A stretch of DNA of 64,000 nt from Myxococcales bacterium (GCA_016191815.1 JACPVI010000006.1:1-64000); one strand, 5' to 3'. Counted from the stretch's first letter, positions 2,092 through 23,615 are shown. Numbers and translations: made by a program. Notes: generated by a model from the letters alone, not told the origin.

Positions 2092-2092
2092 G

Positions 2093-6356: not shown

Positions 6357-7348
6357 CGGCCGCCCTCCGCCGGAAGGTAGTGGTGCAGCCGGCCGCGAAA
6401 CCACTCCACGGTTCGAGCGAGATCCCCGACCCAGTCCGGGTTGGCGCGCCAGCCGGTGACGGATGCGAAGGCTTCCGAGGAGCCGTAGTAGTCGCCGATC
6501 TCCAGCTTCCGGAGCTGTGCGGGGTACTCCACCTTCACTACCGGGCAGCCGCCCCCCGTCTTCGCCAACACCTGGGCGATGTGCTCCAGGGAGGCGCGAG
6601 GGCCGCTCAAGTTGAACACCCTTCCGGCGCAGGCCTCCGCGCCCGCGGCCAGGAGGAAGGCCTGCACCACGTCGTCCACGTGATTCAGGTCCCGGAGGTA
6701 GGCGCCGTCTCCGAACAGCTCGATCGGCTGGCCGGTGAGGGCCCGGTTGATGAACCAGCCGACGAAGCCGAACCGCGGGTGAGAGAGCGCCTGCCGCGGT
6801 CCGTAGGTGTTGGTGAGCCTCAGGGCGCAGGCCCGGAGCCCGTAGTGGCGCGCGAACAGCAAGTGGTACTGCTCGGCCGAGAACTTGTGCACCCCGTTGA
6901 TGTCCACCGGCGAGACCGGGTGCGCCTCGTCCACCGGCAGGTAGCGGGGAGGCCCGTAGAGCTGCCGGGTGCTCGCGTAGACCACGGTGGCCAGGGGGCA
7001 TCGCCCCCGAATCTCTTCCAGCAGGGAGAGGTGCGCCTGGCCGTTGATGGCGAGGTCCTCGAACGGCGCCGTCATGCTGTCGAGGTGGCTGATCCGGCCC
7101 GCGAGGTTGAAGACGAAGTCCGCGCCTTCGAGCAAGGGGCCGATGCGCAGCCGGCCGCACAGGTCCGCCTCCTCCAGCCGGATCCGGTCGAGCACGTCGG
7201 CCAGGTTGTGCCGGTTGGCGCCGCACTTCGGCGCGAGCGAGTCCACCACCGTCACCCGGGCGCCCTCCTCCAGGAGGCGGCGCGCCAAGTTGCTGCCGAT
7301 GAAGCCCAGCCCGCCGGTGACGACGGCGTTCTTACCAGCGAACGACAT
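6353..7348 (-). CDS. NAD-dependent nucleotide-sugar epimerase/dehydratase (SDR)
   Basis: 331-residue extended short-chain dehydrogenase. The NAD motif TGGLGFIGS is at 11-19, and the ASTRQLYGP and LRLTNTYGPRQ segments are conserved. The usual active-site Tyr-x-x-x-Lys reads Asn151-Gly-Val-His-Lys155, so the catalytic tyrosine position is Asn. I recall related sugar epimerases with an NGxxK motif, so this may be a subfamily trait and not damage. It probably produces the keto- or epimerised sugar used by the DegT enzyme encoded next. Confidence 0.87.
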   Translation of the reverse strand: MSFAGKNAVVTGGLGFIGSNLARRLLEEGARVTVVDSLAPKCGANRHNLADVLDRIRLEEADLCGRLRIGPLLEGADFVFNLAGRISHLDSMTAPFEDLAINGQAHLSLLEEIRGRCPLATVVYASTRQLYGPPRYLPVDEAHPVSPVDINGVHKFSAEQYHLLFARHYGLRACALRLTNTYGPRQALSHPRFGFVGWFINRALTGQPIELFGDGAYLRDLNHVDDVVQAFLLAAGAEACAGRVFNLSGPRASLEHIAQVLAKTGGGCPVVKVEYPAQLRKLEIGDYYGSSEAFASVTGWRANPDWVGDLARTVEWFRGRLHHYLPAEGGR

Positions 7349-8288
7349 GATGGATGCGCTCCGCCCTCATCTTGAGGCCAGAGAGGAAGGCCCGCCAGCC
7401 TCGGCGCGGTGGGAGCCTTCCGGCGTCGAAGCCCGGCTCGACCGAGCGGACGAGGGCCAGGGCCTCCGCGAGGTCGGCGACGTAGGGGTGGTAGAGCCAC
7501 CTCTGGGCTCCGGCGGGGAGACGGTACCTGCCGGCGCAGAGGTTGACCGCGCCGTCGGTGAGCAGGACGAGATGGTGGAAATGGTAGAAGACGACATCCA
7601 CGCCATCGGCCTGCGGCCCGCGCGGGCCCTGCCGGAAGCGGTAGCGGATCGCATTCCACGGGGCGACGCCACCCCCTGGGTGTTCCAGCACGTGAACCCC
7701 CTGAAAGCGCTCCGGCCAATCGTCCAGGTACTTCTGGTCGCCGAACTTTCCATCCTCGAAGCGCGCGTAGCACCACTCCAGGCAGCGCTGTTGCCACCAG
7801 CGGAGCACCGTGAGGCCGCGCTGGTCGGCGCGGAAGGAGATGAACTGCACGCAGTACACCCCGCTTTGCGCCGACTGGTCATACTCCTCGGCGTAGCGGT
7901 GGGCGGTGATCAGCACCGAGGCCTGCTGGCTCCGCCACTCCTCCAGCAAAAGCCCGGGCCGCTGGAAGAAGCCGAGGTCCGCGTCCAGGTAGGTGACCTC
8001 GGGCAGGCCGCGGTCCAGGCAGTGGGCGATGGTGTGCGAGGTGCAGGTCCAGCAGTACTCCGCCCGCGTCCGGGTGGGCTTGACCGCGAGCAGGGCGGGG
8101 GTCTCGAACTCCTCCAGCCGGACCAGGCTCATCCGCGGAAGCCGCAGCCGCTCGAGCACCGAGTGCGAGAGCGAATCGAAGCAGAACACGTGGAGGCGGA
8201 AGTCCTCGCCGCACCTCTCCAGCGAGCGGTACAGCGAAAGCCCTCGGGTGAGGTAGGCGCTGTCGAAGAGGGTGCAGTAGTGGTTCAA
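7332..8288 (-). CDS. Putative glycosyltransferase with DAD motif
   Basis: 318-residue protein with GT-A features: CTLFDSAYLTRGLSLYRSLE at the N terminus and YLDADLGFF, a DxD-type metal and nucleotide-sugar site, near the centre. The pattern resembles GT8-like or related transferases; the exact family is unclear. The start is TTG at 8288, overlapping the methyltransferase TGA (TTGA); no ATG is available nearby. Its 3' end overlaps the epimerase start by 17 bases. It presumably adds one sugar to the polymer made by this operon. Confidence 0.75.
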   Translation of the reverse strand: MNHYCTLFDSAYLTRGLSLYRSLERCGEDFRLHVFCFDSLSHSVLERLRLPRMSLVRLEEFETPALLAVKPTRTRAEYCWTCTSHTIAHCLDRGLPEVTYLDADLGFFQRPGLLLEEWRSQQASVLITAHRYAEEYDQSAQSGVYCVQFISFRADQRGLTVLRWWQQRCLEWCYARFEDGKFGDQKYLDDWPERFQGVHVLEHPGGGVAPWNAIRYRFRQGPRGPQADGVDVVFYHFHHLVLLTDGAVNLCAGRYRLPAGAQRWLYHPYVADLAEALALVRSVEPGFDAGRLPPRRGWRAFLSGLKMRAERIHHVVRW

Positions 8289-8947
8289 GCGCGCTCCAGG
8301 AGGGCCGCGCAGATGCGCCCCAAAAAGTTGGGAAAGCGCCGGGACAGCGCGGAGCGCAAAGGTCCGCTGGGGCCGTCCACCAGCTCCAGCCGGCGAATGG
8401 CGAGGCCACTCGCCGCGCACAGCTCCTCGAAGTCCCGCGCCGAGAACTGGTGGATGTGCCCGGTGGAATACCACCGGTAGCCGTAGAGCAGCTCCCGGGG
8501 CATCCGCCCAGCGAGGAGCAGGTCGAGGCGGTTTCGCCAGTGGGCGAAATTGGGAAAGGTCACCACCTGCCTGGGGGCGACTCGCCGCATCTCGGCCAGC
8601 GCCCGCTCCGGGTACATCACCATCTGCAGCGTCACGTTGCAGAGGGCAAAGTCGAACTCGTCCGGTCCGAACTCCGGGCGGGGCTCGTCGAGGCGGCCCT
8701 CCACGATGCGGAAACCCTTCGCCCGGGCGTGGGCCGACCCGCTCGGGGTAAGCTCGATCCCCGAGCCGGTGCAGCCCAGGCGGTCCCGAAGGTAGGCGAG
8801 CAGCGAGCCGTTCCCGCATCCGAAATCCAGCACGCGTGCCCCGGGCGTCACCATCGAGGCCACCACCGGGTACTCGGCGCGGAAGGACTCCGGGCTGTCG
8901 CGATAGTCGTAGGCGCGGTTGTCGTTGCGCGCGGGATCTTCGATCAC
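8285..8947 (-). CDS. MetW-like SAM methyltransferase
   Basis: 220-residue protein resembling MetW and related class I methyltransferases. Motif I reads VLDFGCGNGSLLAYL, followed by GIELTPSG and the conserved FDFALCNVTLQMVMYPERALAEMRRV. The FPNFAHWRNR segment and length are close to MetW. In this operon it probably acts on a glycan or lipid intermediate and not in methionine synthesis, since no metX is next to it. The GTG start at 8947 overlaps the TGA of the upstream methyltransferase. Confidence 0.8.
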   Translation of the reverse strand: MIEDPARNDNRAYDYRDSPESFRAEYPVVASMVTPGARVLDFGCGNGSLLAYLRDRLGCTGSGIELTPSGSAHARAKGFRIVEGRLDEPRPEFGPDEFDFALCNVTLQMVMYPERALAEMRRVAPRQVVTFPNFAHWRNRLDLLLAGRMPRELLYGYRWYSTGHIHQFSARDFEELCAASGLAIRRLELVDGPSGPLRSALSRRFPNFLGRICAALLERA

Positions 8948-9765
8948 GGCTTGGTGGCTTCCATGGTGAGCGAATCGGGCTTTCTCGGCTCGCCTCCGAC
9001 CGCCTCGAGCCCGTAGCCGGCGAATCCCGGGATGCGGCTTTCGCGCCAGTCGCAGCGGCGGACGTCGTTGAGTCCGTGGCGCTCGAGCAGGCGGCGGAGC
9101 GAGAACCGGTCGTACATCCAGCGGTGCAGCTCGCCCGAGGAGGCCATTCGACCTAGCCGCAGCCGGGAGGAAAGTGGCGGTCCTCCCAGCGCGCGTGCGG
9201 CGATGGCTCCCGCCGCCTCGCGCGCCCGGTCCAAAAGGCCCGCGATCGTCTTTCCCCTGAGCCGTTCGAGCAGCGAGCGCTCCGGCGGCGGCCGGAGGAT
9301 GGAGTCCAGCTCGTGGCCGATCCTCCGCCGGACGAAGTCCGCGTTCGGCACCGGCTGCCCCGCCAGGTGCCCCAGCATCCGCCCGCCCGGCTGCTCGCGG
9401 ACGAGTTGATCCAATAGCTCGAGGACCATCCAATCGTAGTCCGCCTCGGCGCCCGGTTCGCCCCGCTCGGCGCCCTCCAGCCGCTCGAGGTAGAGCCGGG
9501 CAATCTGCTCGAGGTCCGGCACCGCCACCCTCGCGTGTCCTCCCGGGCGCAGGACACGCACCAGCTCGGACATCAGGCGGTGAGCCGCCTCGGAGCTGAG
9601 GTGCTCGAGGGTGTGCGAGGAGTACACCGCGTCGAACTCCCGGTCGCCGAAGGGCAGCGGCCGCGACAGGTCGTGCCGGAGGACGCCCGGCCCCGCCGGG
9701 TGGAGATCGAGGTTGACCCAGTCCGGGTGGTACACCTCTCCGCAACCCAGGTTGAGCAGCCTCAT
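8944..9765 (-). CDS. SAM-dependent methyltransferase (Methyltransf_11-like)
   Basis: 273-residue class I methyltransferase. It opens directly on motif I (LLNLGCGEVYHPDWVNLDLHP) and has FDAVYSSHTLEHL and RVLRPGGHARVAVPDLE, the signature of small methyltransferases common in glycan clusters. The C-terminal half carries an extra helical region of unknown role ending in RRLLERHGLNDVRRCDW. It is separated by 49 bases from the upstream glycosyltransferase and overlaps the next methyltransferase by four. Confidence 0.8.
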   Translation of the reverse strand: MRLLNLGCGEVYHPDWVNLDLHPAGPGVLRHDLSRPLPFGDREFDAVYSSHTLEHLSSEAAHRLMSELVRVLRPGGHARVAVPDLEQIARLYLERLEGAERGEPGAEADYDWMVLELLDQLVREQPGGRMLGHLAGQPVPNADFVRRRIGHELDSILRPPPERSLLERLRGKTIAGLLDRAREAAGAIAARALGGPPLSSRLRLGRMASSGELHRWMYDRFSLRRLLERHGLNDVRRCDWRESRIPGFAGYGLEAVGGEPRKPDSLTMEATKP

Positions 9766-9814
9766 GGTTGGCGTCCCCAGACGCGCTGCTCGTACTCCTT
9801 GAGGCGCAGGCGGA

Positions 9815-11041
9815 TCAACTCGCGGACCCGGAGTGCTCGGGGACGCTCAGCTCGCGAATCAGCCGGACCAGCTCGCGCGCGCGGGCAGCATAGGTGTGGT
9901 CGCGCAGGCACCGATCCTGACCGGCCGCGGCGATCTTCCTTCGCTCCTCCGGGCTCTCGAGCAGCCAGCGGATCTTCCGCGCGCACTCGTCGCTCGTCCG
10001 GTAGGCGACCACCTCCCGGTCCGGCTCGAACAGCTCGGGGAGGTTCTCGCGCCAGTCGGTGACCAGGCAGGTGCCGACGCCGGTGACCTCGAACAGCCGC
10101 ATGTTCGAAGCGTGGGTGGAAGAGGAATCGGCGTGGGCGTTCAGCGCGAGCGTGGAGCCCGCGGTCACCCGGAACATCTCCATGCCGTAGACCGCCGGCC
10201 GAATCGAGGACGAGAGCCGTTCGGGAATTCGGTGCGAAGGCGGCGAGTCCCACGCGGCAGCTCCTCGGAGCAGCGGCATCCGGCCGATGATCCGATCCGG
10301 CACTCCCGCCGAACGCGCGGCCTGGAGGAGCCAGTACAGACCGCGCTTGGCCAGCTCCACCGCCGCCCCTCGCGGCGAGGGAGTCGGCGTGTAGATCTCG
10401 AGCGGGACTTGGAGCGCCAGCTCCGAGAGCAGCCTCCTGCGCCCCTCGTGATAGGCCTGGCCCTCTCGCAGCTGCCCGATGAAGGTGACCCGGTGCCGTT
10501 TTTGGGTGCTGCCCAGCCGGTCGAGGATCCGCGGGTCGAACCCGTGGTGGAGCTGGGCGGCGCGGATTCCCCGCGACCGCAGCGCCGCCACGGTCTCCGG
10601 TGCGCAGGAGAGCACCAGGTCCATCAGGCCCCAGGCCTCGGTCTTCGGAATCGAGCTGCCTGCCCAGCCGATGATCGGCCTCCGGCCCAGCACCTCTCGG
10701 AGCTTCGCGAGCAGCCGCGGCTCGTGGTGATCGTACCAGAGCACGTCGGGATCGAGCGCGCGGACCTGGGCGGCGGCGATGTCGAAGGACCAGTCCGGCC
10801 CAGGCGAAAAGCCGTGCTCGCGGGCCCAGGCGCGCTGGAGGGACTCGAAGTTGATGGTCAGCTCGTGCGACTGGTGGCCCAGGCCGGCCAGCGCGCCCGA
10901 CCAGAAGTCGGCCCAGCCAAAGGCGTCGTCGTGGAGCGCCTGGGCGATCTCAGTGTAGGGGCGTCCCCGAAGCTCGGGCCGCCGCGCCTCGAACTGGGCG
11001 AGGTAGTCGGGATAGACCGTGGTCAGCTTGACCAGCCTCAT
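9815..11041 (-). CDS. CgeB-like glycosyltransferase
   Basis: 408-residue GT-B-like glycosyltransferase. The C-terminal half has SNMRLFEVTGVGTCLVTDW and LFEPDREVVAYRTSDECARKIRWLLESPEERRKIAAAG, which matches the CgeB/Glyco_trans_1_2 type. The N-terminal domain begins LVKLTTVYPDYLAQFEARRPEL. The ATG at 11041 was chosen because it opens on the conserved strand and lies just after the stop of the GT2 gene. The frame is open much further upstream but only as a shadow. Role: sugar transfer in polymer synthesis. Confidence 0.82.
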   Translation of the reverse strand: MRLVKLTTVYPDYLAQFEARRPELRGRPYTEIAQALHDDAFGWADFWSGALAGLGHQSHELTINFESLQRAWAREHGFSPGPDWSFDIAAAQVRALDPDVLWYDHHEPRLLAKLREVLGRRPIIGWAGSSIPKTEAWGLMDLVLSCAPETVAALRSRGIRAAQLHHGFDPRILDRLGSTQKRHRVTFIGQLREGQAYHEGRRRLLSELALQVPLEIYTPTPSPRGAAVELAKRGLYWLLQAARSAGVPDRIIGRMPLLRGAAAWDSPPSHRIPERLSSSIRPAVYGMEMFRVTAGSTLALNAHADSSSTHASNMRLFEVTGVGTCLVTDWRENLPELFEPDREVVAYRTSDECARKIRWLLESPEERRKIAAAGQDRCLRDHTYAARARELVRLIRELSVPEHSGSAS

Positions 11042-11043
11042 CG

Positions 11044-11871
11044 TCAGAGCAGTCGCCGCACGCCTCGGTTCAGGCTCAGCCAGAGGGGCCGCAACAGCGG
11101 CGAGAATGGGCTTTGGGCCACCGCCTTGACCAGCCGCACGCGCGCCGCCTCCGCCTCGAGGGCGACCAGGTGGCTCAGGTAGAACGGCCGAGGGAGCTCG
11201 CGCCGGAGGCTGCGCGCCACCTGCCGGCACTCGGCCATCGAGCGCCGGTGGTCGTCGGAAGCGCCACCCAGCTCGAAATCCACCAGCGGCCTTCGGATGC
11301 ACAGCGCCCTGCACCCGGCGGCCAGGCATCGCAGATGGTGGTGGTAGTCGGAGGCGATCAGGTACTCGGTGGAGAAGGGGCCGACCCGGCCGAGCGCGAC
11401 CCTTCGATATACGATTCCCTGGTGGCAGAGCCGGTTCGCGCCCCACAGACTGGCGGCGAAGGTGAAGCTGGGAAGCCGGGGGTAGAGCCGCTCTCCGTCG
11501 CGATGGAGCTCCGCCCCGGCGCAGACCAGATCGAGCGAGGCGTCTTCGTCGAGGCGGCGGATCATCTCCGCGAGGAGCGGCGGATCACGCAGGGTGTCGC
11601 CGCCGTGCAAGAGCCAGAGGTAGCGGCCCTCGGAGGCCGAGATTCCGGAGTTGACCGCGGCGTAGATTCCCCGCGCGGGCTCGATGAGGTGGCGCACCGG
11701 CCACGGCGGCGAGTGCGCCTCCAACACCTTCTCGGACCACTCCGGCGAGGAGTCGACCACCAGCTGCTCCCGGACGAGCCCCAGCCCCTCGAGCGGCATC
11801 AGAGAGCGGAGGGTGCGCCTCAGGCCCTCGGGATCACGGAAGGTGGCGGTGACGATGGACAGGCCGCTCAT
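11044..11871 (-). CDS. Family 2 glycosyltransferase, first gene of the polysaccharide operon
   Basis: 275-residue GT2 enzyme opening with LSIVTATFRDPEGLRRTLRSL. It has ARGIYAAVNSGISASEGRYLWLLHGGD, where GGD occupies the DxD position, and a later WGANRLCHQGIVYRR segment. This resembles colanic-acid-type WcaA/WcaE transferases. The start at 11871 precedes the first beta strand and leaves only 34 bases to the divergent WecG-type gene, so the promoter may lie inside that gene. Confidence 0.82.
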   Translation of the reverse strand: MSGLSIVTATFRDPEGLRRTLRSLMPLEGLGLVREQLVVDSSPEWSEKVLEAHSPPWPVRHLIEPARGIYAAVNSGISASEGRYLWLLHGGDTLRDPPLLAEMIRRLDEDASLDLVCAGAELHRDGERLYPRLPSFTFAASLWGANRLCHQGIVYRRVALGRVGPFSTEYLIASDYHHHLRCLAAGCRALCIRRPLVDFELGGASDDHRRSMAECRQVARSLRRELPRPFYLSHLVALEAEAARVRLVKAVAQSPFSPLLRPLWLSLNRGVRRLL

Positions 11872-11905
11872 CTGTGGCGTGCGAGGGTATGGTACGACGG
11901 CCCGT

Positions 11906-12691
11906 GTGGACAGTCGGAACGGCGAGGCGCCCGCTGGCTCGAGGTACGTGCTGGGCACCCGGGTCGACGCCACGAGCTACGAGCAGGCCACCCGGCGCAT
12001 CCTGGAATGGGCGCGAGAGGGTGGCCGCTACGTGTGCGCGGCCAACGTGCACGTGGTGATGGAGGCCCACGACGACCCGAGCTTCCAGGCAGCCGTGAAC
12101 GGGGCGAGCCTGGTCACCCCCGACGGCATGCCGCTCGTCTGGGCGCTTCGCCTGCTCGGCGTTCCCCGGCAGGCCCGCGTCTACGGGCCCACCCTGATGC
12201 TCCGGGTGTGCGCCGCCGCGGCGGAGCAGGGCGTCCCGGTCGGCTTCTACGGAGGCCGTCCCGAGCACCTTGCTCCGCTGGTGGATCGCCTCGGGCGAAG
12301 GTTCTCCCGGCTCCGGATCGCCTACGCCGAGGCTCCTCCGTTCCGGCCGCTTTCGCCGGAGGAGGACGGCGCGGCCAGCCGGGCCATCTCGAACTCCGGC
12401 GCGCGGGTGCTCTTCGTGGGGCTGGGCTGCCCCGCCCAGGAGCGATGGATGGCCGCCCACCAGTCCCTGCCCGCGGTGCTCCTCGGCGTGGGGGCGGCGT
12501 TCGACTTCCACTCCGGGCGGCTTCGCCAGGCTCCGCCCCTTTTGCAGCGCGCCGGACTGGAATGGGCGTTCCGGCTTGCCACCGAGCCCCGGCGGCTCTG
12601 GAGGCGGTACCTCTTTCACAACCCCCGCTACCTCGCGCTGCTCGCCAGGCAGCTTGCCTCGGGCGCGCGCAGCTCGGGGGGACGGAGGTGA
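11906..12691 (+). CDS. WecG/TagA/CpsF-family glycosyltransferase
   Basis: About 261 residues. It has the family hallmarks [17 protein letters not shown] near the N terminus, [43 protein letters not shown], and the C-terminal [20 protein letters not shown], ending with [11 protein letters not shown]. Members transfer N-acetylmannosaminuronic acid, N-acetylmannosamine or related sugars to undecaprenyl-linked acceptors. It probably extends the lipid-linked precursor used by the neighbouring operon. The start is uncertain: GTG 11906 is favoured, but GTG 11879 or an ATG at 11855 overlapping the divergent gene is possible. Confidence 0.87.
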
Positions 12692-12797: not shown

Positions 12798-13394
12798 ATG
12801 CGGCGACGAGACGGGGGAAGCGGCTTCACGCTCATCGAGTTGATGATCGTCGTGGCAATCATCGGAATCCTCGCGGCGGTGGCCATTCCGAACTTCATGC
12901 GACTGCAGGCGCGCTCCAAGCAGTCCGAGGCAAAGACGAATCTCAAGTCGCTCTTCACTGCGGAGCAGGCATTCATGCAGGAGTTCGACCGCTACACGCC
13001 CTACGTGCACGAGGTGGGGTTCATCCCCGAGCGGGGAAATCGGTATGCCTACCGGACCACGACCGGCAGCCTCGAGGGCCGTATCGGGTCCACCAGGGTC
13101 GTCGATCCCATCAACGTGGGCAGCGAGGCGGACACCTTCAAACACGGGGGGATCGTCGAGCCGGCGTACATCGCCGGCGCCACTGGCCTCCCTGTGGCGG
13201 CCACCACCGACTCGATCTTCTCGGCCACCGCCGCCGGACAACTCGACACTGACGCCGAGGCCGACTCTTGGCACATCGCGGCCTCCGGCCCCCGCGGGCG
13301 CGGGTACGACGTCGTGGCGGCGTGCGGGAACAACGAAACCAAAGAGGTCGATGGGACCGCTTTCAACTCGTACAACGACGTCTCCTGCCCCTGA
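12798..13394 (+). CDS. pilA: Type IV major pilin-like protein 1
   Basis: 198-residue type IVa prepilin. A short basic leader (MRRRDGGSG) precedes the cleavage site Gly-Phe and the mature N terminus [18 protein letters not shown], with Glu5 of the mature protein present. A long hydrophobic alpha1 helix and a variable globular domain follow, ending in [20 protein letters not shown] and SCP. Only two cysteines occur, both in the C-terminal loop region. AAGGAG at 12785-12790 is the ribosome binding site. A second pilin gene with nearly the same ends but a different middle follows at once. Which of the two is the main pilin cannot be told from sequence. Confidence 0.93.
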
Positions 13395-13435
13395 GGCCCG
13401 GGCGCCTTCCCCTGGCGCTGGCGGGTGGCCTTTTT
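13394..13435 (+). terminator. Terminator after pilin 1
   Basis: An interrupted GC-rich stem (AGG, CCCG and GCGCC pairing with GGCGC, CGGG and CCT, about 12 pairs with two bulges) begins at the pilin stop codon and is followed by TTTTTC. This fits an intrinsic terminator or attenuator separating the two pilin transcripts. Confidence 0.5.
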
Positions 13436-13522
13436 CGGCACCGGGGGTGACAAAAAACGGCCCTCCGGATCGAAAAAACCTCGCCCCTCCCGAAATCTGG
13501 CATACTTCCGCCGCCCCCGGTG

Positions 13523-13538
13523 TGGCGCATGCTTTGCT
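13523..13538 (+). promoter_or_regulatory. Sigma-54 promoter of pilin gene 2
   Basis: TGGCGCA, four bases, TTGCT is a near-perfect -24/-12 element, with GG at 13524-13525 and GC at 13536-13537. The pilin ATG lies 45 bases downstream, almost the same distance as for the first pilin. Together with the sigma-54 activator encoded at 22182 this suggests local control. Confidence 0.82.
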
Positions 13539-13583
13539 AAGCGCAGAAACGCGGTCTTCTCTCACCCCATCAAGGAGCGGCTG

Positions 13584-14186
13584 ATGCTCAGGCGACTTCG
13601 GAAGCGTGGTTTCACCCTCATCGAGCTGATGATCGTGGTCGCGATCATCGGAATCCTGGCAGCGATCGCCATCCCGAACTTCATCCGGTTCCAGGCGCGT
13701 TCGAAGCAGTCCGAGTGTAAGTCCAACCTCAAGTCGCTGTTCACCTCGGAGCGCGCCTTCAGGCAGGAATACGATCGGTATTCCGAGTACGTGCACGAGG
13801 TGGGCTTCCAGCCCGAGCGGGCCAACCGGTACTCCTACCGGTCCAAGGCCGGCCTGACCCTGGCGAACCGCACCGCGTCCACGCAGACCACCGCCCCGAC
13901 TGACGTCGGCGTCCAGGTTGACTCCTTCAAGTACGGCGGCAATACCGAGGAAACCTACATCGCCGGCACCACCGGCCTTGTCGCCGCCGCTACCACCACT
14001 GCCCAGTTCGAGGCGACTTGCGCCGGGCAACTCGACACCGACACCGAGGCCGACTCCTGGCACATCATGGCCAGCGGCGGCGCTGGCGCCGGCGGTGCGG
14101 TGGTGGCCGCCAAGTGCGGCAACAACGACACCAAGGAAGTCGACGGGACCCCGTTCAACTCGTACAACGACGTGAGCTGCCCGTAG
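13584..14186 (+). CDS. pilA: Type IV major pilin-like protein 2
   Basis: 200-residue type IVa prepilin. The leader MLRRLRKRG is followed by mature [18 protein letters not shown] with Glu5 present. The first 60 and last 45 residues closely resemble pilin 1, but the segment between about 70 and 150 differs. It has four cysteines (in SECKSN, EATCAGQ, AKCGNN and the C terminus), two more than pilin 1, so disulfide topology may differ. The ribosome binding site AAGGAG lies at 13572-13577. It has its own sigma-54 promoter and is followed by a strong hairpin before pilG, suggesting high separate expression. Confidence 0.93.
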   Translation: MLRRLRKRGFTLIELMIVVAIIGILAAIAIPNFIRFQARSKQSECKSNLKSLFTSERAFRQEYDRYSEYVHEVGFQPERANRYSYRSKAGLTLANRTASTQTTAPTDVGVQVDSFKYGGNTEETYIAGTTGLVAAATTTAQFEATCAGQLDTDTEADSWHIMASGGAGAGGAVVAAKCGNNDTKEVDGTPFNSYNDVSCP

Positions 14187-14277: not shown

Positions 14278-15156
14278 ATGCGACGGCAAGCACTCTGCAT
14301 CGCATGCATCGCGCTCGGCATCGGAGTCGTCGCCGGGCTGGCGCGACCTCCGCGGCAAGGGCCGGCTCCCGGCAAGCATCTGCCCCCGATGCTGCCGCGC
14401 ATCGAGGTGCTGAAGGTGATCGGGGCTCCCTACCGGGAGCTGCTCACCGACTACTACTGGGTGCAGACGCTCCAGGCGGTCACCCGGGCCAACACGCCCG
14501 AGGAGTACCGGGACCTCTACGACTACGGCGAGCTGGTGTCCGAGCTGGACCCGAAGTTCCGGCCGATCTACCTCTTCGTGGGCGGCGCCTTGCCGGTCCA
14601 CCTCGGCGACGGCAATTGGGAAAACACCGCCGAGTCCACCAAGATCCTCGAGAAGGGCCACGCCCGCTTTCCGGACCAGGTGCTGCTCGCCATCCTGCTC
14701 GCCTACAACCTCAGCGAACACCACAAGGAAACCCAGCGGGCCGCGACGGTACTGCTCGAGGTCTCCAAGGTCCCGGGGGCGCCGAGGTGGCTGCCCCTCT
14801 TGGCCACCCGCATGCTCGCCGAGGCGAAGGACTTCGACGCCGGACTGGCCCTCGCCCAGTCGCTGGCCCGGTCGGACGATCCGGAGACCCGCGCCACCTT
14901 TCAGCGCCGGGTGAAGGAGCTGGAGCTGGAGCGACTGCTGACCGAAGTGGACTCCGCCTCGGCCGCGTACCTCTCCCGCACCGGCCGCGCTCCGGAGACA
15001 GTGGCCGCCCTGGTGGAGGCAGGCGACCTGCCGTCCTTGCCGGTGGATCCGCTCGGCGGCCAGATCGTCCTCGGCGAGAATAGGAAGGCCCGTTCGACCG
15101 CCGCCTTGAAGCGATTGAAGCTGCTCGGCAGAGACGCCGCCGAAGAGGTGCGCTAG
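14278..15156 (+). CDS. pilG: PilG-like T4P accessory protein
   Basis: 292 residues. An N-terminal hydrophobic segment (ALCIACIALGIGVVAGLA) works as a signal anchor. It is followed by a helical domain with TPR-like stretches (YWVQTLQAVTRANTPEEYRDLYDYGELVSELDPKFRPIYLFVGG). The C-terminal part contains VDSASAAYLSRTGRAPETVAALVEAGDLPSLPVDPLGG, a pattern also seen near the ends of other secretion-linked proteins. The name rests mainly on position: in M. xanthus pilG lies between pilA and the ABC transporter genes pilH and pilI. PilG there is needed for pilus assembly by an unclear mechanism. Its stop is two bases from the pilH start. Confidence 0.75.
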   Translation: MRRQALCIACIALGIGVVAGLARPPRQGPAPGKHLPPMLPRIEVLKVIGAPYRELLTDYYWVQTLQAVTRANTPEEYRDLYDYGELVSELDPKFRPIYLFVGGALPVHLGDGNWENTAESTKILEKGHARFPDQVLLAILLAYNLSEHHKETQRAATVLLEVSKVPGAPRWLPLLATRMLAEAKDFDAGLALAQSLARSDDPETRATFQRRVKELELERLLTEVDSASAAYLSRTGRAPETVAALVEAGDLPSLPVDPLGGQIVLGENRKARSTAALKRLKLLGRDAAEEVR

Positions 15157-15158
15157 CC

Positions 15159-16121
15159 GTGAGCGACGCCCCCCTCCCCATCGAGACCCGCGAGCTCAGC
15201 AAGACCTACCGGCTGGGCTTCTTCATGAACCGGAAGGTCCGGGCGCTCCAGGGCGTCAGCCTCTCGGTGCGGCCGGGCGAGGTGTACGGGCTGCTCGGCC
15301 CCAACGGCGCGGGAAAATCCACCACCATCAAGATCCTGATGAACCTGGTGCAGGCCTCGAGCGGAGAGGCGCGGCTGTTCGGCCAACCTTCTCAGGATTG
15401 CGCCGCCCGGCAGGAGGTGGGCTTCTTGCCGGAGAACCCCGCCCCGTACGAGTACCTGAGCGGAGCCGAGTTCGTGCGGCTCGCCGGCTCGCTGGGAGGG
15501 CTCTTTGGGCGCGAGCTCGACCGCCGGGTGGCCGAGACCTTGGGAGAGGTGGGCATGGAGCACGCGGCCTCCCTGCCCATCCGCCGCTACTCGAAGGGGA
15601 TGATCCAGCGCATCGGGCTTGCCCAGGCGATCGTCACCCGGCCAAAGCTGTTGATCCTCGACGAGCCGACCTCGGGGCTCGACCCGGTGGGCCGCCGGCA
15701 GATGCGCGATCTGGTGTCGGCCGAGCGGGCGCGCGGCACCACGGTGCTCTTCTGCACGCACATCATTCCGGACGTGGAGGCGCTCTGCGACCGGGTGGCG
15801 GTGCTGGTCTCCGGCAAGCTGGTGAAGGAGGGGAGCGTCCGGGACCTGGTCACCTCCCAGGTGCCGCTGGTGGAGCTGGTGATCGAGGGGCTGGGGCTTT
15901 CGCAGGTGCGGGCGCTGGGCGAGCCGCTCCAGTTCGAGCAGGAGATCGGCCAGCGGGTGACGGTGAGGACCGACGACGCCGCGGGGCAGCGCCTCCTCCG
16001 GGCCGTCCTCTCGGCGGGTGGACGGGTGGCGCAGCTCTCGCCGGCGCGCTTTTCCCTCGAGGACCTGTTCATGGAGACGGTCGCCGGGGCGAAGCAAAAA
16101 GTGGGAGGGGAGATCAATTGA
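15159..16121 (+). CDS. pilH: PilH ABC transporter ATPase
   Basis: 320-residue ABC ATPase. Walker A is in LLGPNGAGKSTTIKIL, the Q-loop is near EVGFLPENPAPYEY, the signature is YSKGM and Walker B is KLLILDEPTSGLDP, with the switch His in CTHIIPDVEAL. The C-terminal domain of about 100 residues is typical of CcmA/NatA-type ATPases. GTG start at 15159. In M. xanthus PilH and PilI form an ABC transporter required for T4P biogenesis, with unknown substrate. The TGA overlaps the TTG start of the permease gene. Confidence 0.87.
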   Translation: MSDAPLPIETRELSKTYRLGFFMNRKVRALQGVSLSVRPGEVYGLLGPNGAGKSTTIKILMNLVQASSGEARLFGQPSQDCAARQEVGFLPENPAPYEYLSGAEFVRLAGSLGGLFGRELDRRVAETLGEVGMEHAASLPIRRYSKGMIQRIGLAQAIVTRPKLLILDEPTSGLDPVGRRQMRDLVSAERARGTTVLFCTHIIPDVEALCDRVAVLVSGKLVKEGSVRDLVTSQVPLVELVIEGLGLSQVRALGEPLQFEQEIGQRVTVRTDDAAGQRLLRAVLSAGGRVAQLSPARFSLEDLFMETVAGAKQKVGGEIN

Positions 16122-16888
16122 TTCGGGTCTTCGCCAGCCTGGCCTGGAACGGCTTCCGGGAGGCCCGCCGCAACCGGGTGAGCGTGGTGATCGCCGCCTT
16201 CACCCTGGCCTTGGTGGGGGCCTCGGCGGTGATGGCGGACGTGACCGTCTACACCATGCGCCGGGTGGTCACCGACTTCGGGCTGGGGGCGATGGCCATC
16301 CTCCTCTCGGTGATGGCCATCTTTCTCTCCAGCGGCCTGCTCACCCGGGAGATCGAGCGCCGGACCATCTTCCTCATGGTGTCGCGGCCGGTCTCCCGCG
16401 GGCTGTTCCTCGTCTCGCGGCTGGCGGGGAACATGCTCACCCTGGGGGCGATGCTCCTGGTGATGAGCGCGGTGTTCTTCCTTCAGCTCATCGTGTTCGG
16501 GATCTCGCCCAGCGCGCCTCAGCTCATCGCCGCCGGAGTGCTCTGGTTCGAGCTGTTGGTGCTCACCAGCTTCGGCTTCTTGATGTCCAGCTTCAGCGGG
16601 CAGGTGACTTCTTCGGTGGTGACGGTGGGCATGTTCTTCGCCGGCCACCTGGCCAACGACATGTACGAGCTGTCGGCCCGCTCCAAGAGCGAAGTGGTGC
16701 GGGCCGCGGGAAAGGCGGTGTACTACCTCTTGCCGAACCTCGAGCGGTTGAACTACCGGGGCGCGGCCGCCTACGAGGTCACCCCGCCGCTGGGAGAGGT
16801 GTTCCAGTCGGCCCTCTACAGCGTGGGGTACTCGACCGTGCTCGTCGCATTGGCGATCCTGCTCTTCAACCGGCGCGACTTCCGCTAG
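16118..16888 (+). CDS. pilI: PilI ABC transporter permease
   Basis: 256-residue ABC-2-type membrane protein with about six hydrophobic segments. It has REIERRTIFLMVSRPVSRGLFLVSRLAGN, the cytoplasmic loop common to NosY/CcmB-like permeases. The start is TTG at 16118 overlapping the pilH TGA (TTGA), so translation is coupled. It partners PilH. No substrate can be inferred from the sequence. Confidence 0.82.
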   Translation: MIRVFASLAWNGFREARRNRVSVVIAAFTLALVGASAVMADVTVYTMRRVVTDFGLGAMAILLSVMAIFLSSGLLTREIERRTIFLMVSRPVSRGLFLVSRLAGNMLTLGAMLLVMSAVFFLQLIVFGISPSAPQLIAAGVLWFELLVLTSFGFLMSSFSGQVTSSVVTVGMFFAGHLANDMYELSARSKSEVVRAAGKAVYYLLPNLERLNYRGAAAYEVTPPLGEVFQSALYSVGYSTVLVALAILLFNRRDFR

Positions 16889-16910
16889 TGGCGAGAGTGG
16901 CGCTAGCGGA
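16881..16910. terminator. Palindrome spanning two convergent stop codons
   Basis: TCCGCTAG (16881-16888) and CTAGCGGA (16903-16910) form an eight-pair inverted repeat with a 14-base loop. It covers the stop codons of pilI and of the convergent GT2 gene. It could stop transcription in both directions, but there is no T-run. Confidence 0.35.
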
Positions 16911-17622
16911 GGCCGAGCCCCACGTAGAAGAGCGGGCGCAAGATGGACCACCAGCCGGTCACCGGCCTCATCTTGGTCTGGCCGAGTGCCCGGGGCGGGT
17001 AGACCTTGGTGACCGGCACCTCGGTGGTGCGGTAGCCGAGCTGGATCGCTTTCAGGTAGAGGTAGGGCTCCAGCTCGTAGGCGTCGAGCCAGGGCTGATT
17101 CAGGTCCAGCCGTGGATCAGCCAGGACGGACCGATGCACGGCGCGGAAGCCGTTGGTGGACTCGGTCACCCACTTCCGGGCGGCCAGCGAGAAGAGCAGC
17201 GGATGCACCCGGGTCGCGACCCGGCGGTAGATGGGCATCGAGCCGAAGTGGGCGCTCGGCTTCAAGTAGCGCGAGCCCTGGACGAAGTCCGCCCGGCCGT
17301 CGGCGATCGGGTCGACGAGGAGCGGGATCTCCTCTGGCGAGTCCTTGTTGTTGCCGGCCATCACCACCGCCACGTCGCAGCCGTGCCGCAGGGCGTGGCG
17401 GTAGCCCTCCCGGATGGCAGCTCCCACGCCCGCCACCCTGCCCATGGGTAGCACGGTGGCCCCGAGCTCCCTCGCGATCCGCGGAGAGTCGTCGGTGCAC
17501 CCGTCGTCCACCACCAAGAGCTCGTCGACCAGCCCCCGAGGAGTCCGGCGCACCACCTCGCCGATCTTCCCCGCCTCGTTGAAGACCGGCGCGATGGCGA
17601 TCAGCTTGAGTCCGCGGTACAT
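16903..17622 (-). CDS. DPM1-like GT2, putative polyprenyl-phosphate sugar synthase
   Basis: 239-residue GT2 enzyme. It opens with LIAIAPVFNEAGKIGEVVRR and has LLVVDDGCTDDSPRIARELGA and GVGAAIREGYRHALRHGCDVAVVMAGNNKDSPEEI, where the usual DADGQH acidic motif is replaced by AGNNKD. ESTNGFRAVHRSVL and the C-terminal RALGQTKMRPVTGWWSILRP follow the DPM1-like subfamily. Such enzymes commonly make polyprenyl-phosphate-linked sugars. It lies between pilI and pilD, and 57 bases divergent from a GT-C-like membrane protein that could use its product. A longer start at 17676 is possible but would leave almost no space. Confidence 0.78.
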   Translation of the reverse strand: MYRGLKLIAIAPVFNEAGKIGEVVRRTPRGLVDELLVVDDGCTDDSPRIARELGATVLPMGRVAGVGAAIREGYRHALRHGCDVAVVMAGNNKDSPEEIPLLVDPIADGRADFVQGSRYLKPSAHFGSMPIYRRVATRVHPLLFSLAARKWVTESTNGFRAVHRSVLADPRLDLNQPWLDAYELEPYLYLKAIQLGYRTTEVPVTKVYPPRALGQTKMRPVTGWWSILRPLFYVGLGLR

Positions 17623-17679
17623 GCAGCCATCGGTTTCTATCGCAACTTCGGCGAAGGGGGCCGGCAGCGCGGTCATTCC

Positions 17680-19992
17680 ATGTGGACCGGCGTGAGAAGG
17701 CTGGCCACCGCCAGCGGCATCGCGCTCGCCGCCCTGTGCGGCTTGCACCTCTGGCTCGGAGCGGCGCTCGTCCCGAGCATCGGCTTCTCCAAGTACCCCG
17801 AGGCGGCCGCGCTCCTCTTGCAAGGCAGGCTGGGCTCCGAGGCAGGAGGCGACTACAGCCCGCTCTACCTGTTGCTCAACGCGGCGCTCTCTCCGCGGGC
17901 GATGAGGTGGCTCCAGGCGCTCGCCGGGTGCGGCGGCTTGCTCGCGGTCCATGCCTTCGGCGCTCGGTGGTTTGGCCGCGGCGCGGGGTTGGCCGGCGCC
18001 GCCGCCTTCTCGCTCTCGGGCACCGCCCTGCTCTACGAGGCGGCGCTCGAGCCCGACCTCCTCATCTGCGCGCTCGGTGCGGCGGCGCTCGCGGCGCTCT
18101 CGAGGCTCCACGCTGCGGAGGGCGAGTTGACGCCCAAGGGGCGCCGCGTCGCGCTCCTTGCGGCGGGGCTCGCCCTCGGCCTGATGGCCTCGCTCCGGCC
18201 CACCGGGCTGCTCCTGGGGGCCGCCGCGGCCGCCTGGGTGGGCTGGAAGCTCCGCGGCGCCGGAGCGCGCCGAGCTCTCGCCGGCAGCGGTCTCCTCGCG
18301 GCAGCGGTGCTCCTCTTCGGTGCCGCGCCGCCGCTGTGGGTGCGCGGCCTCTCGGCTCACCCGGCGGCCATGATGAGCGCGGGCGCCGTCTTCCAGATGG
18401 GCAACCGCCCCGAGGGCACCGGCCTCGGCGCCCAGCCTCCGTACCTGCTCAAGCAGGCGGAGCGGCAGCTCCAGCGCTACGCGGCGCACGAGCTGTACCG
18501 CCGATTCGCGGAGGCGGCGGAGGGGAGGGCGCTCCGCCCCGCAGAGGCCGAGTGGTACTGGGCGCGGAAGGCCCTGGAGTTTGCCCGGCGGCATCCGGGC
18601 GCCCACGCGAGGCTGCTGATGCGGAAGGCGGCCTTCTTCCTCTACGGACCCGAGGCGCACGACATCGCCGAGCTACGGAGGGCCGAGTCCGCGCTGGGCC
18701 GCCTGCCGCTCCTCCGGCTCGACCACCTCGGCCTCCTGGCGCTCGGGGGGCTTGCGCTCGCGCTGATTCGGCGGCGCCCGGTCGGCCTTCCGGCCCTCTT
18801 CCTTCTGTGCGCCCTCGCCACCGGGGTCGCCTTCTACGTGGTGAGCCGCTTCCGCCTGGCGGCGTTGCCGGCCTCCTGCGCGCTCGCTGGTTGGCTCGTC
18901 GCCGATCTGATTGTCTCGCTGCGGCAGCCGGCGAGGCTGCTCCGGTGGGCGCCGGCCGGCCTCATCGCGGTGCTCGCCTCCTTCGTTCCGGGGGCGGTGG
19001 GCGACGCGGCCAGGTTCCTCGCCCGCACCTCCCAGACGTCCGAGCTGATGCAGCCCTTGCGGAGCTCCCTGGCGACGGGAGATTTGGCGCAGGCCGGGTC
19101 GACCTTCGCGCTCGCCCAGGCCATCCAGCCCTTCGTGGTGCACACCCAGAACCTTCGGGGCATCCCCTTCGAGTCGGAAGAGCTGGCGGAGCAGTCGGCG
19201 CATCTCGCTGCGGAGAGATGGGGGGCCGACGGTGACACCGACGCCTTGCTGCTCGCGGTCCTGGCGGACCGGGCCGGCCGATGCGGCGAAGCGCTCGAGA
19301 CCGTCCGCGGGCTCGGCGGGCCCGCCTTCCGCACCGCGGTGTTCGACCTGGCGCTCGACCCGGCGCTCTGGGCGGCAGAGTGCCTGCTTCGCCGAGGCGA
19401 TCGAGAGGGGGCGATGTCCGAAGTCCTCCGGTCGCTGGAAGAGCGCCCCGGGACGCTCCAGGGGCTCGCGTCGGCCGTCGCCGGCTCCGAGGCCACCGGC
19501 CGCCCGGCGGAAGCCTGGCGCGGGGAGCTGTTCGCCCTGCACGACGCCCTGAGCGCGCGCTACGCCCTCGCCCGAGCTCGCCTGCAGTGGGGCGACGCGG
19601 CCGGAGCGCTCGCCGACGCCGAGGCTACACTCGCCCTTTCGCCCGAGCTTGCTCTCGCTCACTACCAGCGGGCAGTCGCGCTGGTCCGCCTGGGAAGGAC
19701 GGCGGAAGGGCTGGAGGCCTACGCCCGTGCCCTCCGCGGCTTCCCCGCGTTCGCGTTCCCTACCCGGCCATTCGACCGCGCCGTCCGGGCGGAGCTGGAC
19801 GCCGGCGCCGGCGATCCTCTCCTCCTATCGCTGGCGATCGAGCACTTCATCCGCGCCGGCCGGCTCGAGGAGGCGGAGGCGCTTTTGCCCGCGGCGCTCC
19901 GGTTGCCGCTGAGGGCGCCCGAGCTGGAGGAGCAGCTAGGGTTCCTCTCTCGCGCGCGAAGCCGGCGTGCATTGGCTCCCGGCGGTGGCTAG
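17680..19992 (+). CDS. GT-C-like membrane glycosyltransferase with C-terminal TPRs
   Basis: 770 residues. The first 450 or so contain about ten hydrophobic helices and look like a PMT/ArnT (GT39-type) fold. A periplasmic loop includes PEAAALLLQGRLG and DYSPLYLLLNAAL, and ALEPDLLICALG resembles the second acidic motif. The C-terminal 300 residues are helical with TPR-like repeats (ARARLQWGDAAGALADAEATLALSPELALAHYQRAVALVRLGRTAEG). GT-C plus TPR recalls eukaryotic TMTC O-mannosyltransferases. No standard pil gene occupies this position. Family assignment is by pattern only; a Wzy-like or non-catalytic TPR membrane protein is the alternative. pilD follows within 14 bases. Confidence 0.65.
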   Translation: MWTGVRRLATASGIALAALCGLHLWLGAALVPSIGFSKYPEAAALLLQGRLGSEAGGDYSPLYLLLNAALSPRAMRWLQALAGCGGLLAVHAFGARWFGRGAGLAGAAAFSLSGTALLYEAALEPDLLICALGAAALAALSRLHAAEGELTPKGRRVALLAAGLALGLMASLRPTGLLLGAAAAAWVGWKLRGAGARRALAGSGLLAAAVLLFGAAPPLWVRGLSAHPAAMMSAGAVFQMGNRPEGTGLGAQPPYLLKQAERQLQRYAAHELYRRFAEAAEGRALRPAEAEWYWARKALEFARRHPGAHARLLMRKAAFFLYGPEAHDIAELRRAESALGRLPLLRLDHLGLLALGGLALALIRRRPVGLPALFLLCALATGVAFYVVSRFRLAALPASCALAGWLVADLIVSLRQPARLLRWAPAGLIAVLASFVPGAVGDAARFLARTSQTSELMQPLRSSLATGDLAQAGSTFALAQAIQPFVVHTQNLRGIPFESEELAEQSAHLAAERWGADGDTDALLLAVLADRAGRCGEALETVRGLGGPAFRTAVFDLALDPALWAAECLLRRGDREGAMSEVLRSLEERPGTLQGLASAVAGSEATGRPAEAWRGELFALHDALSARYALARARLQWGDAAGALADAEATLALSPELALAHYQRAVALVRLGRTAEGLEAYARALRGFPAFAFPTRPFDRAVRAELDAGAGDPLLLSLAIEHFIRAGRLEEAEALLPAALRLPLRAPELEEQLGFLSRARSRRALAPGGG

Positions 19993-20005
19993 CATCGGGC
20001 CGCGC

Positions 20006-21007
20006 GTGGAAACGCTCTCGCTGCTGGCCTCGAGCCCGCTGTCGCTTATTTGGCTCGCGGCGCTGGGACTCGTCGTCGGCAGCTTCCTCAACGTGGTGAT
20101 CGCCCGGCTCCCCGCGGAGCAGAGCATCGTGCGCCCCCGCTCCCGGTGCCCGAGCTGCGGCCACTCGATTCCCTGGTACGAGAACATCCCCATCTTCTCT
20201 TTCCTCGCTCTCCGTGGCCGGTGCAGCGCCTGCAAGAAGCCCATCTCGGTGCGCTACCCGCTGGTGGAGCTGCTCACCGCCACGCTCTTCCTCGCCTGCT
20301 GGCGCCGCTTCGGCTGGGAGTACCCGCTCGCGCCCGCGCTGCTCTTCGCCTCCCTCCTCATCGCCCTCGCCTTCATCGACGCCGAGCACTGGCTCCTCCC
20401 CCTGGAGCTGACCGTGCCGGGCATGGTGGTGGGCCTGGCCATGGCCGCGCCGATGGGGCTCGATCGGCTCTGGGCGGCCTCCCTGGGGCTTTCGGTCGGG
20501 TTTCTCTCCTTCCGCTTGCTGGAGTACGTGGGTTGGAAGGCCTTCCGTCGGGAAGCCCTCGGCGCCGGAGACAAGTTCCTCTTCGGGCTCATCGGCGCCT
20601 TCCTCACCCACCGGCCGCTCCTGGTGGTGCTGGGACTGGCCTCCCTGCAAGGCTCGCTCTACGGCGGGGTGCGGATGCTCCTCACCGGCCGCGCCGCGCC
20701 CGCCCCCGAGGATGCCGGCGCCGGCGCCGCCGAGCCGGAGCCCACCATGAGCTGGGCCTTCCTGGCGCCGGGTCTGTCTCTCTTTCGGCGGATGGCGCTG
20801 CTTCCCTACTCGCTCCTTTTGCAGCCCATCCCCGATGAGCCAAAGGACGCGGAGGGAGAGGAGGTGGAGTGGCGACCGGGAAAGAGCAACCTCCCCTTCG
20901 GTCCCTGGCTCGCGCTGGCCGGGGTGGAGGTGCTGCTGTTCGGGCCCTACCTGGCCTCGAAGCTTTCGCCGCTCGGGCTGGAGTGGCTCTTCGGCGGCAG
21001 GGACTGA
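20006..21007 (+). CDS. pilD: Prepilin peptidase/N-methyltransferase PilD
   Basis: 333-residue membrane aspartic protease that cleaves prepilin leaders and methylates the new N terminus. The cytoplasmic zinc domain has CPSC (48-51) and CSAC (73-76). The catalytic aspartates are Asp125 in FIDAEHWLLP and Asp189 in GAGD. About 90 residues, including an Ala/Pro/Glu-rich stretch, separate GAGD from the conserved NLPFGPWLALAG near the end, making it longer than most PilD proteins. GTG 20006 follows the upstream stop; GTG 19967 is possible but would overlap. It would process both pilins encoded here. Confidence 0.93.
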   Translation: METLSLLASSPLSLIWLAALGLVVGSFLNVVIARLPAEQSIVRPRSRCPSCGHSIPWYENIPIFSFLALRGRCSACKKPISVRYPLVELLTATLFLACWRRFGWEYPLAPALLFASLLIALAFIDAEHWLLPLELTVPGMVVGLAMAAPMGLDRLWAASLGLSVGFLSFRLLEYVGWKAFRREALGAGDKFLFGLIGAFLTHRPLLVVLGLASLQGSLYGGVRMLLTGRAAPAPEDAGAGAAEPEPTMSWAFLAPGLSLFRRMALLPYSLLLQPIPDEPKDAEGEEVEWRPGKSNLPFGPWLALAGVEVLLFGPYLASKLSPLGLEWLFGGRD

Positions 21008-21010
21008 ACG

Positions 21011-22132
21011 ATGAGCTTCCGCCTCGCCAGCATCTCCTTCCTGCTCGGCTCGCTGGCCACCGGCGTCACCTGGCTCACCGTCCAGCCGCCGCTGGTGCGG
21101 CTGCTCGACGCCATCCAGCGGCACACGCCGGAGGGCAGCCCGGCCCGCGAAGTGGTGGCGCAGGTGCGCGCCCTGCTCCCCTATTACCTCGGGCTGGACC
21201 TGCTGTTGATGGCGGGGCTCTGCTTCGCCGTCCTCCACCTCGCCATCGCCCGGCCGCTCAGGCGCACCGAAGAAGCGGTGGAGCAGCTCTCCCGGCTCGA
21301 GCTGGACTTGCCTCTTAGGCCGGCCGGCGGCCCGCTCCTCTCCCGACTCGAGCGCTCTCTCAAGAGGATGGCCGATGCTTTGCTCGCAGAGCAGGCGCTC
21401 ACCAGAAGGCAGCTCGCCGAGCTGAGGGAGGCCAACTTGAAGCTCCGCCGCGCCCAGACCGAGCTGGTCGCCTCCGAGCGGCTGGTCACCGTGGGCAGGC
21501 TGGCCGCGGGGGTGGCGCACGAGGTGGGAAACCCTCTCTCCGGAATCCTCGGCTACCTCTCGGTGATCCGCGCGCGGGCTGGGCAGAGCCCGGAGGTGGT
21601 GGAGCTTTTGGGCCGCGTCGACGGCGAGGTTCAGCGCATCGATCAGATCGTCCGCGGACTGCTTGAGCTGGGCCGCCCCGCGCGGGGGAGCCCCGGGCCG
21701 GTGGAGGTGGCCCGCATCGCCGAGGCCTGCGCCAGACTGCTCTCCGCAGGGCCGGACTTCGGCGCGGTGGAGATCAAGATGGAGCTCGAGCCGGGGGCGG
21801 TGGCCCAGGCCGAGCAGGGGCCGCTCTCCCAGGTGCTGATCAACCTCTTGCTCAACGCGGCCCAGGCGATGGGAGGCAAGGGAGCCATCCGCCTTGCGGC
21901 TCGCCGGCAAGGGGAGCGGATCGCGATCGAGGTCGAGGACACCGGTCCGGGAATTCCCCCCGAGGTGATGCCGCGGCTGTTCGAGCCCTTCTTCACCACC
22001 AAGGCGGGAGGGAAGGGCAACGGGCTCGGGCTCGCGGTCTCCCGGCACTTGCTGTCGGCGATGGGCGGCGAGCTGACCGCCGATAACGGCGAGCGCGGAG
22101 CGAGGTTCACCGTCACGCTGCCCGCCGTCTGA
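21011..22132 (+). CDS. pilS2: NtrB-type sensor histidine kinase (PilS2-like)
   Basis: 373 residues. Two N-terminal membrane helices flank a short periplasmic part (about 5-75), followed by a HAMP-like linker and a coiled-coil. The H-box is GVAHEVGNPLSGI, with His170 the phosphate acceptor. The N box INLLLNAAQAM, G1 DTGPGIP and FEPFFTTKAGGKGNGLGL are intact, so it should be active. It starts three bases after pilD. In M. xanthus a second pilS/pilR pair lies between pilD and pilM, which is the basis for the name. The signal is unknown. Confidence 0.87.
   Translation: MSFRLASISFLLGSLATGVTWLTVQPPLVRLLDAIQRHTPEGSPAREVVAQVRALLPYYLGLDLLLMAGLCFAVLHLAIARPLRRTEEAVEQLSRLELDLPLRPAGGPLLSRLERSLKRMADALLAEQALTRRQLAELREANLKLRRAQTELVASERLVTVGRLAAGVAHEVGNPLSGILGYLSVIRARAGQSPEVVELLGRVDGEVQRIDQIVRGLLELGRPARGSPGPVEVARIAEACARLLSAGPDFGAVEIKMELEPGAVAQAEQGPLSQVLINLLLNAAQAMGGKGAIRLAARRQGERIAIEVEDTGPGIPPEVMPRLFEPFFTTKAGGKGNGLGLAVSRHLLSAMGGELTADNGERGARFTVTLPAV

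Positions 22133-22181: not shown

Positions 22182-23615
<1,434 letters not shown>

Follow-up and report, generated by a model that had tools for sequence, protein, structure and literature searches.

Between pilI and pilD, the pil locus of a Myxococcales bacterium carries a gene for a 770-residue membrane protein that is predicted, from its structural model, to consist of a GT-C fold followed by a TPR superhelix, and GT-C/TPR genes recur at the pil loci of related genomes. This repeated settling of GT-C/TPR enzymes beside pil genes suggests that these pili may be sugar-coated. For the protein itself, we give roughly even odds to a role as an inner-membrane, lipid-linked (polyprenyl-phosphate or -diphosphate) glycosyltransferase with a periplasmic TPR domain, most likely acting on a tandem pilin and served by a neighbouring GT2 protein that charges the carrier. 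The window, i.e. the whole stretch of 64,000 nucleotides that was analysed, contains the following features:

886-12691, both strands: polysaccharide cluster abutting the pilin genes
886-2091 and 2093-2941, minus strand: ABC exporter genes of this cluster
11684-12691, plus strand: WecG-type glycosyltransferase of this cluster
12798-13394, plus strand: first type IV pilin gene, mature pilin of 189 residues, candidate glycosylation target
13584-14186, plus strand: second, tandem type IV pilin gene, mature pilin of 191 residues, candidate target
14278-15156, plus strand: pilG, so named for its place in the pil locus and its similarity
15159-16121, plus strand: pilH, ABC ATPase
16118-16888, plus strand: pilI, ABC-type pil permease
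16903-17622, minus strand: GT2 protein, DPM1/AglJ-like, 239 residues, ATG start, without membrane helices (open reading frame, Pfam, NCBIfam, PDB)
17680-19992, plus strand: GT-C/TPR membrane protein, 770 residues (open reading frame, Pfam, model, hydropathy)
19967-21007, plus strand: pilD, prepilin peptidase, with an alternative second GTG start at 20006
21011-22132, plus strand: histidine kinase gene, 3' of pilD
22182-23615, plus strand: sigma-54-type response regulator gene of the pil locus

Past the two regulatory genes, pilM and pilN lie further downstream in the locus, and adjacent TamB-like and Omp85/POTRA genes are found downstream of it (37817-44802). The polysaccharide cluster, which stops some 100 bp short of the first pilin gene, also encodes a sugar-nucleotide dehydrogenase, a DegT aminotransferase, an epimerase, a methyltransferase and a glycosyltransferase, and is a possible sugar source, in a putative role. 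The tandem pilin genes (12798-14186) are similar in length and have diverged in their C-terminal halves; Ser and Thr make up 20% of the second pilin after residue 28.

Both reading frames that the first-pass annotation had placed between pilI and pilD are present, and both flanking genes were identified. Its coordinates stand; the strand of the GT2 gene, which it did not give, is minus, the plus strand of 16903-17622 containing a stop. The GT2 gene is thus convergent with pilI and divergent from the GT-C/TPR gene, from which it is separated by 57 bp. The GT-C/TPR gene overlaps pilD by 26 nt, or leaves a gap of 13 nt if the GTG at 20006 is used, and from this spacing the two are probably co-transcribed.

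Predicted fold and conserved residues of the membrane protein

The GT-C/TPR gene has a coding-like third-position GC of 0.90. Its product matches PMT_2 (5e-4) and TPR families (from 2e-3) in Pfam, all below the cut-offs; with 20.7 bits against a cut-off of 26.1 for PMT_2 (PF13231), the curated score does not assign it to GT39. Since every Pfam match falls short, the 'GT-C-like' N terminus and 'TPR-like' C terminus of the first-pass annotation were fair guesses from sequence, and fold prediction now supports both domains. An AlphaFold2 model was built from 14 family sequences (mean pLDDT 85.2, pTM 0.86). In VIA-align, many GT-C enzymes with Z scores of 12-24 head the list above the TPR rows, which places residues 5-452 inside the GT-C membrane fold. 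The best matches are Pmt4 (9i5k; Z 24.4, rmsd 3.9, 333 residues) and Pmt1-2 (6p25; Z 24.1, rmsd 3.7, 337 residues), followed by the oligosaccharyltransferases AglB and STT3 and by ArnT (Z 19.9). The Foldseek list by itself contained TPR-type matches only, the GT-C match emerging in the VIA re-alignment; residues ~460-760 match TPR superhelices in Foldseek. By sequence, PMT1 is the sole GT-C match in the PDB, and a weak one (E 0.025); the alignment pairs D126 with a PMT1 Asp. Our reading of hydropathy and of the positive-inside rule gives 11 transmembrane helices in the GT-C domain; K/R contents of 29% versus 11% in short loops agree with this number and with TPRs on the outside, so that the superhelix is probably periplasmic.

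The family alignment comprises 16 sequences, and invariant residues were taken from a 14-member alignment. Seven invariant polar residues (D58, D126, R243, E245, H270, R274 and R390) lie in or near presumed periplasmic loops, R390 being invariant within S-R-[FY]-R in what is, by position, presumably the last of these loops. Read by position, D126 and R390 are candidates for two GT-C features, an acidic residue at the TM3/TM4 end and an Arg in the last periplasmic loop. As judged from conservation, this set looks like a working site. A first-loop Asp is common to the known GT-C enzymes compared in PMC7801869. The canonical DD or DE pair is absent from the first periplasmic loop of the window protein, which reads FSKYPEAA (F-x-K-Y-P-[D/E/N] in the family), and profile alignment yielded no placement for the first-loop catalytic acid. 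Position 41 is acidic in all homologues but two and D58 is invariant; E41 or D58 may stand in for the canonical Asp. The missing pair would fit a protein devoid of catalysis that serves pilus assembly as a membrane scaffold or chaperone through its TPR domain, and this group has known pilus factors with TPRs, e.g. SgmX (PMC7519303). Against this explanation, which we consider very improbable compared with a catalytic role, stand the numerous invariant polar residues of the presumed periplasmic loops, D58, D126 and the last-loop R390 among them.

The designation 'TMTC-like' in the first-pass annotation captured the architecture, a GT-C domain followed by TPRs, and failed on profile similarity and on the DD motif. 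The hhalign probability against a bacterial TMTC-like profile is 1.8%, and neither the window protein nor its family shows the DD, KE or ERxxY motif, so that TMTC (GT105) membership is ruled out.

The GT2 gene and the distribution of the window GT-C/TPR family

The GT2 protein carries a Glycos_transf_2 domain (PF00535; 2.9e-12, 47.3 bits against a cut-off of 23.3). Its description as DPM1-like is borne out by its closest relatives, the dolichyl-phosphate mannose synthase of the archaeon Pyrococcus (5mlz; 6e-11) and, as best family match, AglJ (TIGR04182; 5e-23, 81.9 bits against a cut-off of 325); every NCBIfam equivalog cut-off was missed. Where 5mlz reads MDADLQHPPE, the GT2 protein reads MAGNNKDSPE, with AGN in place of DxD, and none of the five orthologues (the window copy and four others) has DxD at this site. 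Of 195 Myxococcota genomes, 5 have an orthologue. Three of the four outside the window lie in unrelated genomic places and none of the four adjoins the GT-C gene, which rules out a conserved GT2/GT-C pair and with it the dedicated pair of the first-pass annotation; among the 96 genomes searched, no other has the exact combination. On one contig (L045:8947-11374, genome G010), a homologue of the window GT-C/TPR gene precedes a DPM1-like GT2 reading frame that is cut off by the contig end.

The GT2 protein also resembles GtrB-type proteins. This likeness, the close structural match of the GT-C domain to ArnT and the proximity of the ABC-exporter cluster to the first pilin gene would all suit an assignment of both genes to the neighbouring polysaccharide pathway, where they would modify a lipid-linked glycan by ArnT- or GtrB/C-like side-branch transfer, their position at pil being accidental. 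However, pilA-G-H-I separate the polysaccharide cluster from the two genes, the window GT-C family is found at pilD in genomes G049 and G051 too, and GT-C/TPR genes are recurrent at the pil loci of many relatives; we hold this origin to be unlikely.

Clear homologues of the membrane protein are present in 17 other genomes of the family (18 with that of the window), and this is therefore a real conserved gene; a scan of genome contigs with the window protein alone gave no matches. The gene adjoins pilD in three genera (G000, G049 and G051). At the same locus in G049, a protein encoded beside pilD (L061:883-2847) matches Dpy19, a C-mannosyltransferase family, in Pfam above the cut-off (2.7e-7), and the label 'STT3-like' for it is ruled out. 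Copies in Myxococcus and Corallococcus, ~47% identical, usually neighbour not pil but a PEP carboxylase-like gene (identified by sequence reading). In a tree from which G051 was left out as too incomplete, these copies form one clade, and the pil-linked copies of G000 and G049 are separate deep branches, not resolved; counted by lineage, about half of this family is thus at pil. The first-pass annotation would have counted a pair found mostly away from pil and exported-protein genes as a refutation: the window family, which lies away from pil in 15 of its 18 genomes, partly falls under this, whereas the broader GT-C/TPR class at pil withstands it.

The same 15 genomes would suit a general O-glycosylation enzyme, acting on other exported proteins, with pilin one of many targets or none. 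The wide spread of bacterial TMTC-like proteins across phyla fits as well; in most cases the stretch read around them contains no pil genes. The coupling to pilD in the window and the recurrent pil placement in relatives speak against such a general role, to which we assign a low probability, in favour of pilin as the target.

GT-C/TPR genes at the pil loci of relatives

In the family search, pilI was detected in 88 of 96 genomes, and its surroundings were read in 81 loci. A different, TMTC-like GT-C/TPR gene lies at most 12 kb from pilI in 25 related genomes, the hosts being Myxococcus (for instance M. eversor), Corallococcus (for instance C. sicarius) and Citreicoccus. These pilI-linked proteins carry the EL1 DD, K-E and ERxxY motifs, which have been assigned to ligand sites of TMTC (PMC7801869), and a model of the protein has the GT-C and TPR domains. 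Profile matches lie near pilI in 29 of 61 cases, a share inflated by a profile built from pil-linked copies; all 20 close orthologues, which partly reflect one inheritance, are ~0.5-2.9 kb from pilI. More independent cases are the divergent GT-C/TPR proteins linked to pil in G011, G012, G066/G073 and G048 (the last TMTC-like by sequence reading, without a Pfam match) and the window-type protein in its three genera. GT-C proteins are common in the genome of the window, with 10 PMT family matches, so finding one beside pil in just one genome would in itself be no surprise.

Sugar-related genes accompany these enzymes. A polyprenyl-phosphate-type GT2, either of the two-helix GtrB/ArnC/PgfS type or of the AglJ type, is found in 16 of 27 GT-C/TPR pil loci, a DegT aminotransferase and a WbqC protein in ten, and methyltransferase genes in some. 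In G072 (L118:6302-13655), the glycan island that separates pilI from the following pil regulators encodes a TMTC-like protein, a second GT-C protein of the PMT_2 type, WbqC, DegT, a GtrB-like GT2 and a methyltransferase. Some Myxococcus-type genomes have pilI adjoining pilD with no glycan island between them, which makes a comparison within one genus possible. This recurrence of glycosylation-type genes at relatives' pil loci supports the first-pass proposal of glycosylation; the dedicated GT2/GT-C pair is not supported.

A scan not restricted to pil extended this beyond the Myxococcaceae. In Pseudoxanthomonas suwonensis (L216:5456-7746), a TMTC-like GT-C/TPR gene directly follows pilA, with pilC and pilD nearby; in a Planctomycetota metagenome-assembled genome (L212:261-7776), pilC, a pilin gene and genes for a DPM-like GT2, a GT4-like protein, a GDP-mannose dehydratase-like protein and a TMTC-like protein lie together, the last two named by our sequence reading. 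Most other matches outside the Myxococcaceae have no pil genes within the stretch read.

Other large membrane proteins were also noted at these loci: YfhO-type proteins beside pilI or upstream of pilA in Corallococcus-type and other genomes (L096:6262-8643, L102:6262-8982 and, upstream of pilA, L112), and proteins with a soluble end that we read as spermidine-synthase-like (L141:14133-16253, L143:2-2809 and L146:2-2923), which precede pilA in genera g4, g26 and g18. The pilins of genomes with a GT-C/TPR gene at pil contain 17.2% Ser/Thr versus 14.6% overall, and within genera the difference is 16.9% versus 12.5% in g6 (p 0.006), with p 0.13 in g19; since none of these values is corrected for relatedness, the difference is not used as support. 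Likewise ignoring relatedness, the window GT-C family and the pil TMTC-like gene co-occur with p 0.003 in g6 and p 0.14 in g19.

The wider pil-locus pattern supports glycosylation more than the GT2/GT-C pair does. From these genes we infer the enzyme activity, the donor sugar, the pilin target and the GT2 protein as supplier. The GT-C domain would transfer a sugar onto an exported protein, one of the two tandem pilins being the most likely acceptor, with a polyprenyl phosphate (or diphosphate) as donor carrier; the TPR domain would hold the protein substrate. The enzyme is probably made together with PilD, which matures the same pilins. The weakest step is the role of the divergent GT2 protein, which would load the carrier with sugar at the cytoplasmic face of the membrane. 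Pilin is the best single candidate target because the GT-C/TPR gene of the window runs directly into pilD and because genes of this architecture have come to lie at pil again and again. Counting against pilin glycosylation are the missing first-loop Asp pair, a GT2 that lacks DxD and does not accompany the GT-C gene elsewhere, the abutting polysaccharide cluster, which could own both genes, the PEP carboxylase-like neighbour in Myxococcus and Corallococcus, and the abundance of GT-C proteins in the genome. More tentatively, and with somewhat less than even chances, GT-C/TPR proteins (the TMTC-like ones and the unrelated window family) would be a general, as yet undescribed class of type IV pilin glycosyltransferases, recruited to pil several times (Myxococcaceae, Pseudoxanthomonas, planctomycetes), with interchangeable GT2s and glycan genes and a myxobacterial sugar coat that differs by species.

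Comparison with known systems

Other bacteria are known to glycosylate their pilins, and myxobacterial pili drive social motility. To our knowledge, bacterial TMTC-like proteins have no assigned substrate; the TMTC-like genes beside pilI or pilA point to a concrete candidate. Our literature search found no myxobacterial pilin glycosylation, no pil-linked TPR glycosyltransferase, and no description of the window GT2/GT-C arrangement or of a pil-linked GT-C/TPR architecture. A survey of myxobacterial pil loci published in 2018 gives the number of intervening genes; its main text names neither glycosyltransferases nor TPR proteins (PMC6060248). Pil-linked glycosyltransferases as such are already known; what appears new, in that we found no description of it, is the GT-C/TPR architecture at pil.

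The nearest known arrangement is that of TfpW of P. aeruginosa, a GT-C arabinosyltransferase encoded beside pilA (PMC11841053). TfpW and TfpO are strain-variable pilin accessory glycosyltransferases encoded beside the pilin gene, and pilin glycosylation in this species protects against pilus phages (PMC11841053). Like them, the window gene (between pilI and pilD) and those of the 25 relatives lie within the pil locus. However, the window gene precedes pilD whereas tfpW and tfpO directly follow pilA, its product has TPRs whereas the relevant part of PMC11841053 mentions no TPR domain for TfpW or TfpO, and glycosylation of its pilin is a prediction from the genes.

Pmt1, Pmt2 and Pmt4 (GT39) are the best structural matches of residues 5-452, with the weak sequence match to PMT1. 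PMTs have a luminal MIR domain (PMC7759382) where the window protein has a C-terminal TPR superhelix, and their first-loop DE motif is absent from the window protein, which also scores below the Pfam cut-off. TMTC1-4 and bacterial TMTC-like proteins share the order of GT-C domain and TPRs with the window protein, but not its profile, and their DD, KE and ERxxY motifs are not found in it. Finally, the window GT2 belongs by sequence to the same GT2 family as the dolichyl- or polyprenyl-phosphate sugar synthases DPM1, archaeal AglJ and PpgS, from which it differs by AGN in place of DxD and by falling short of the equivalog cut-offs.
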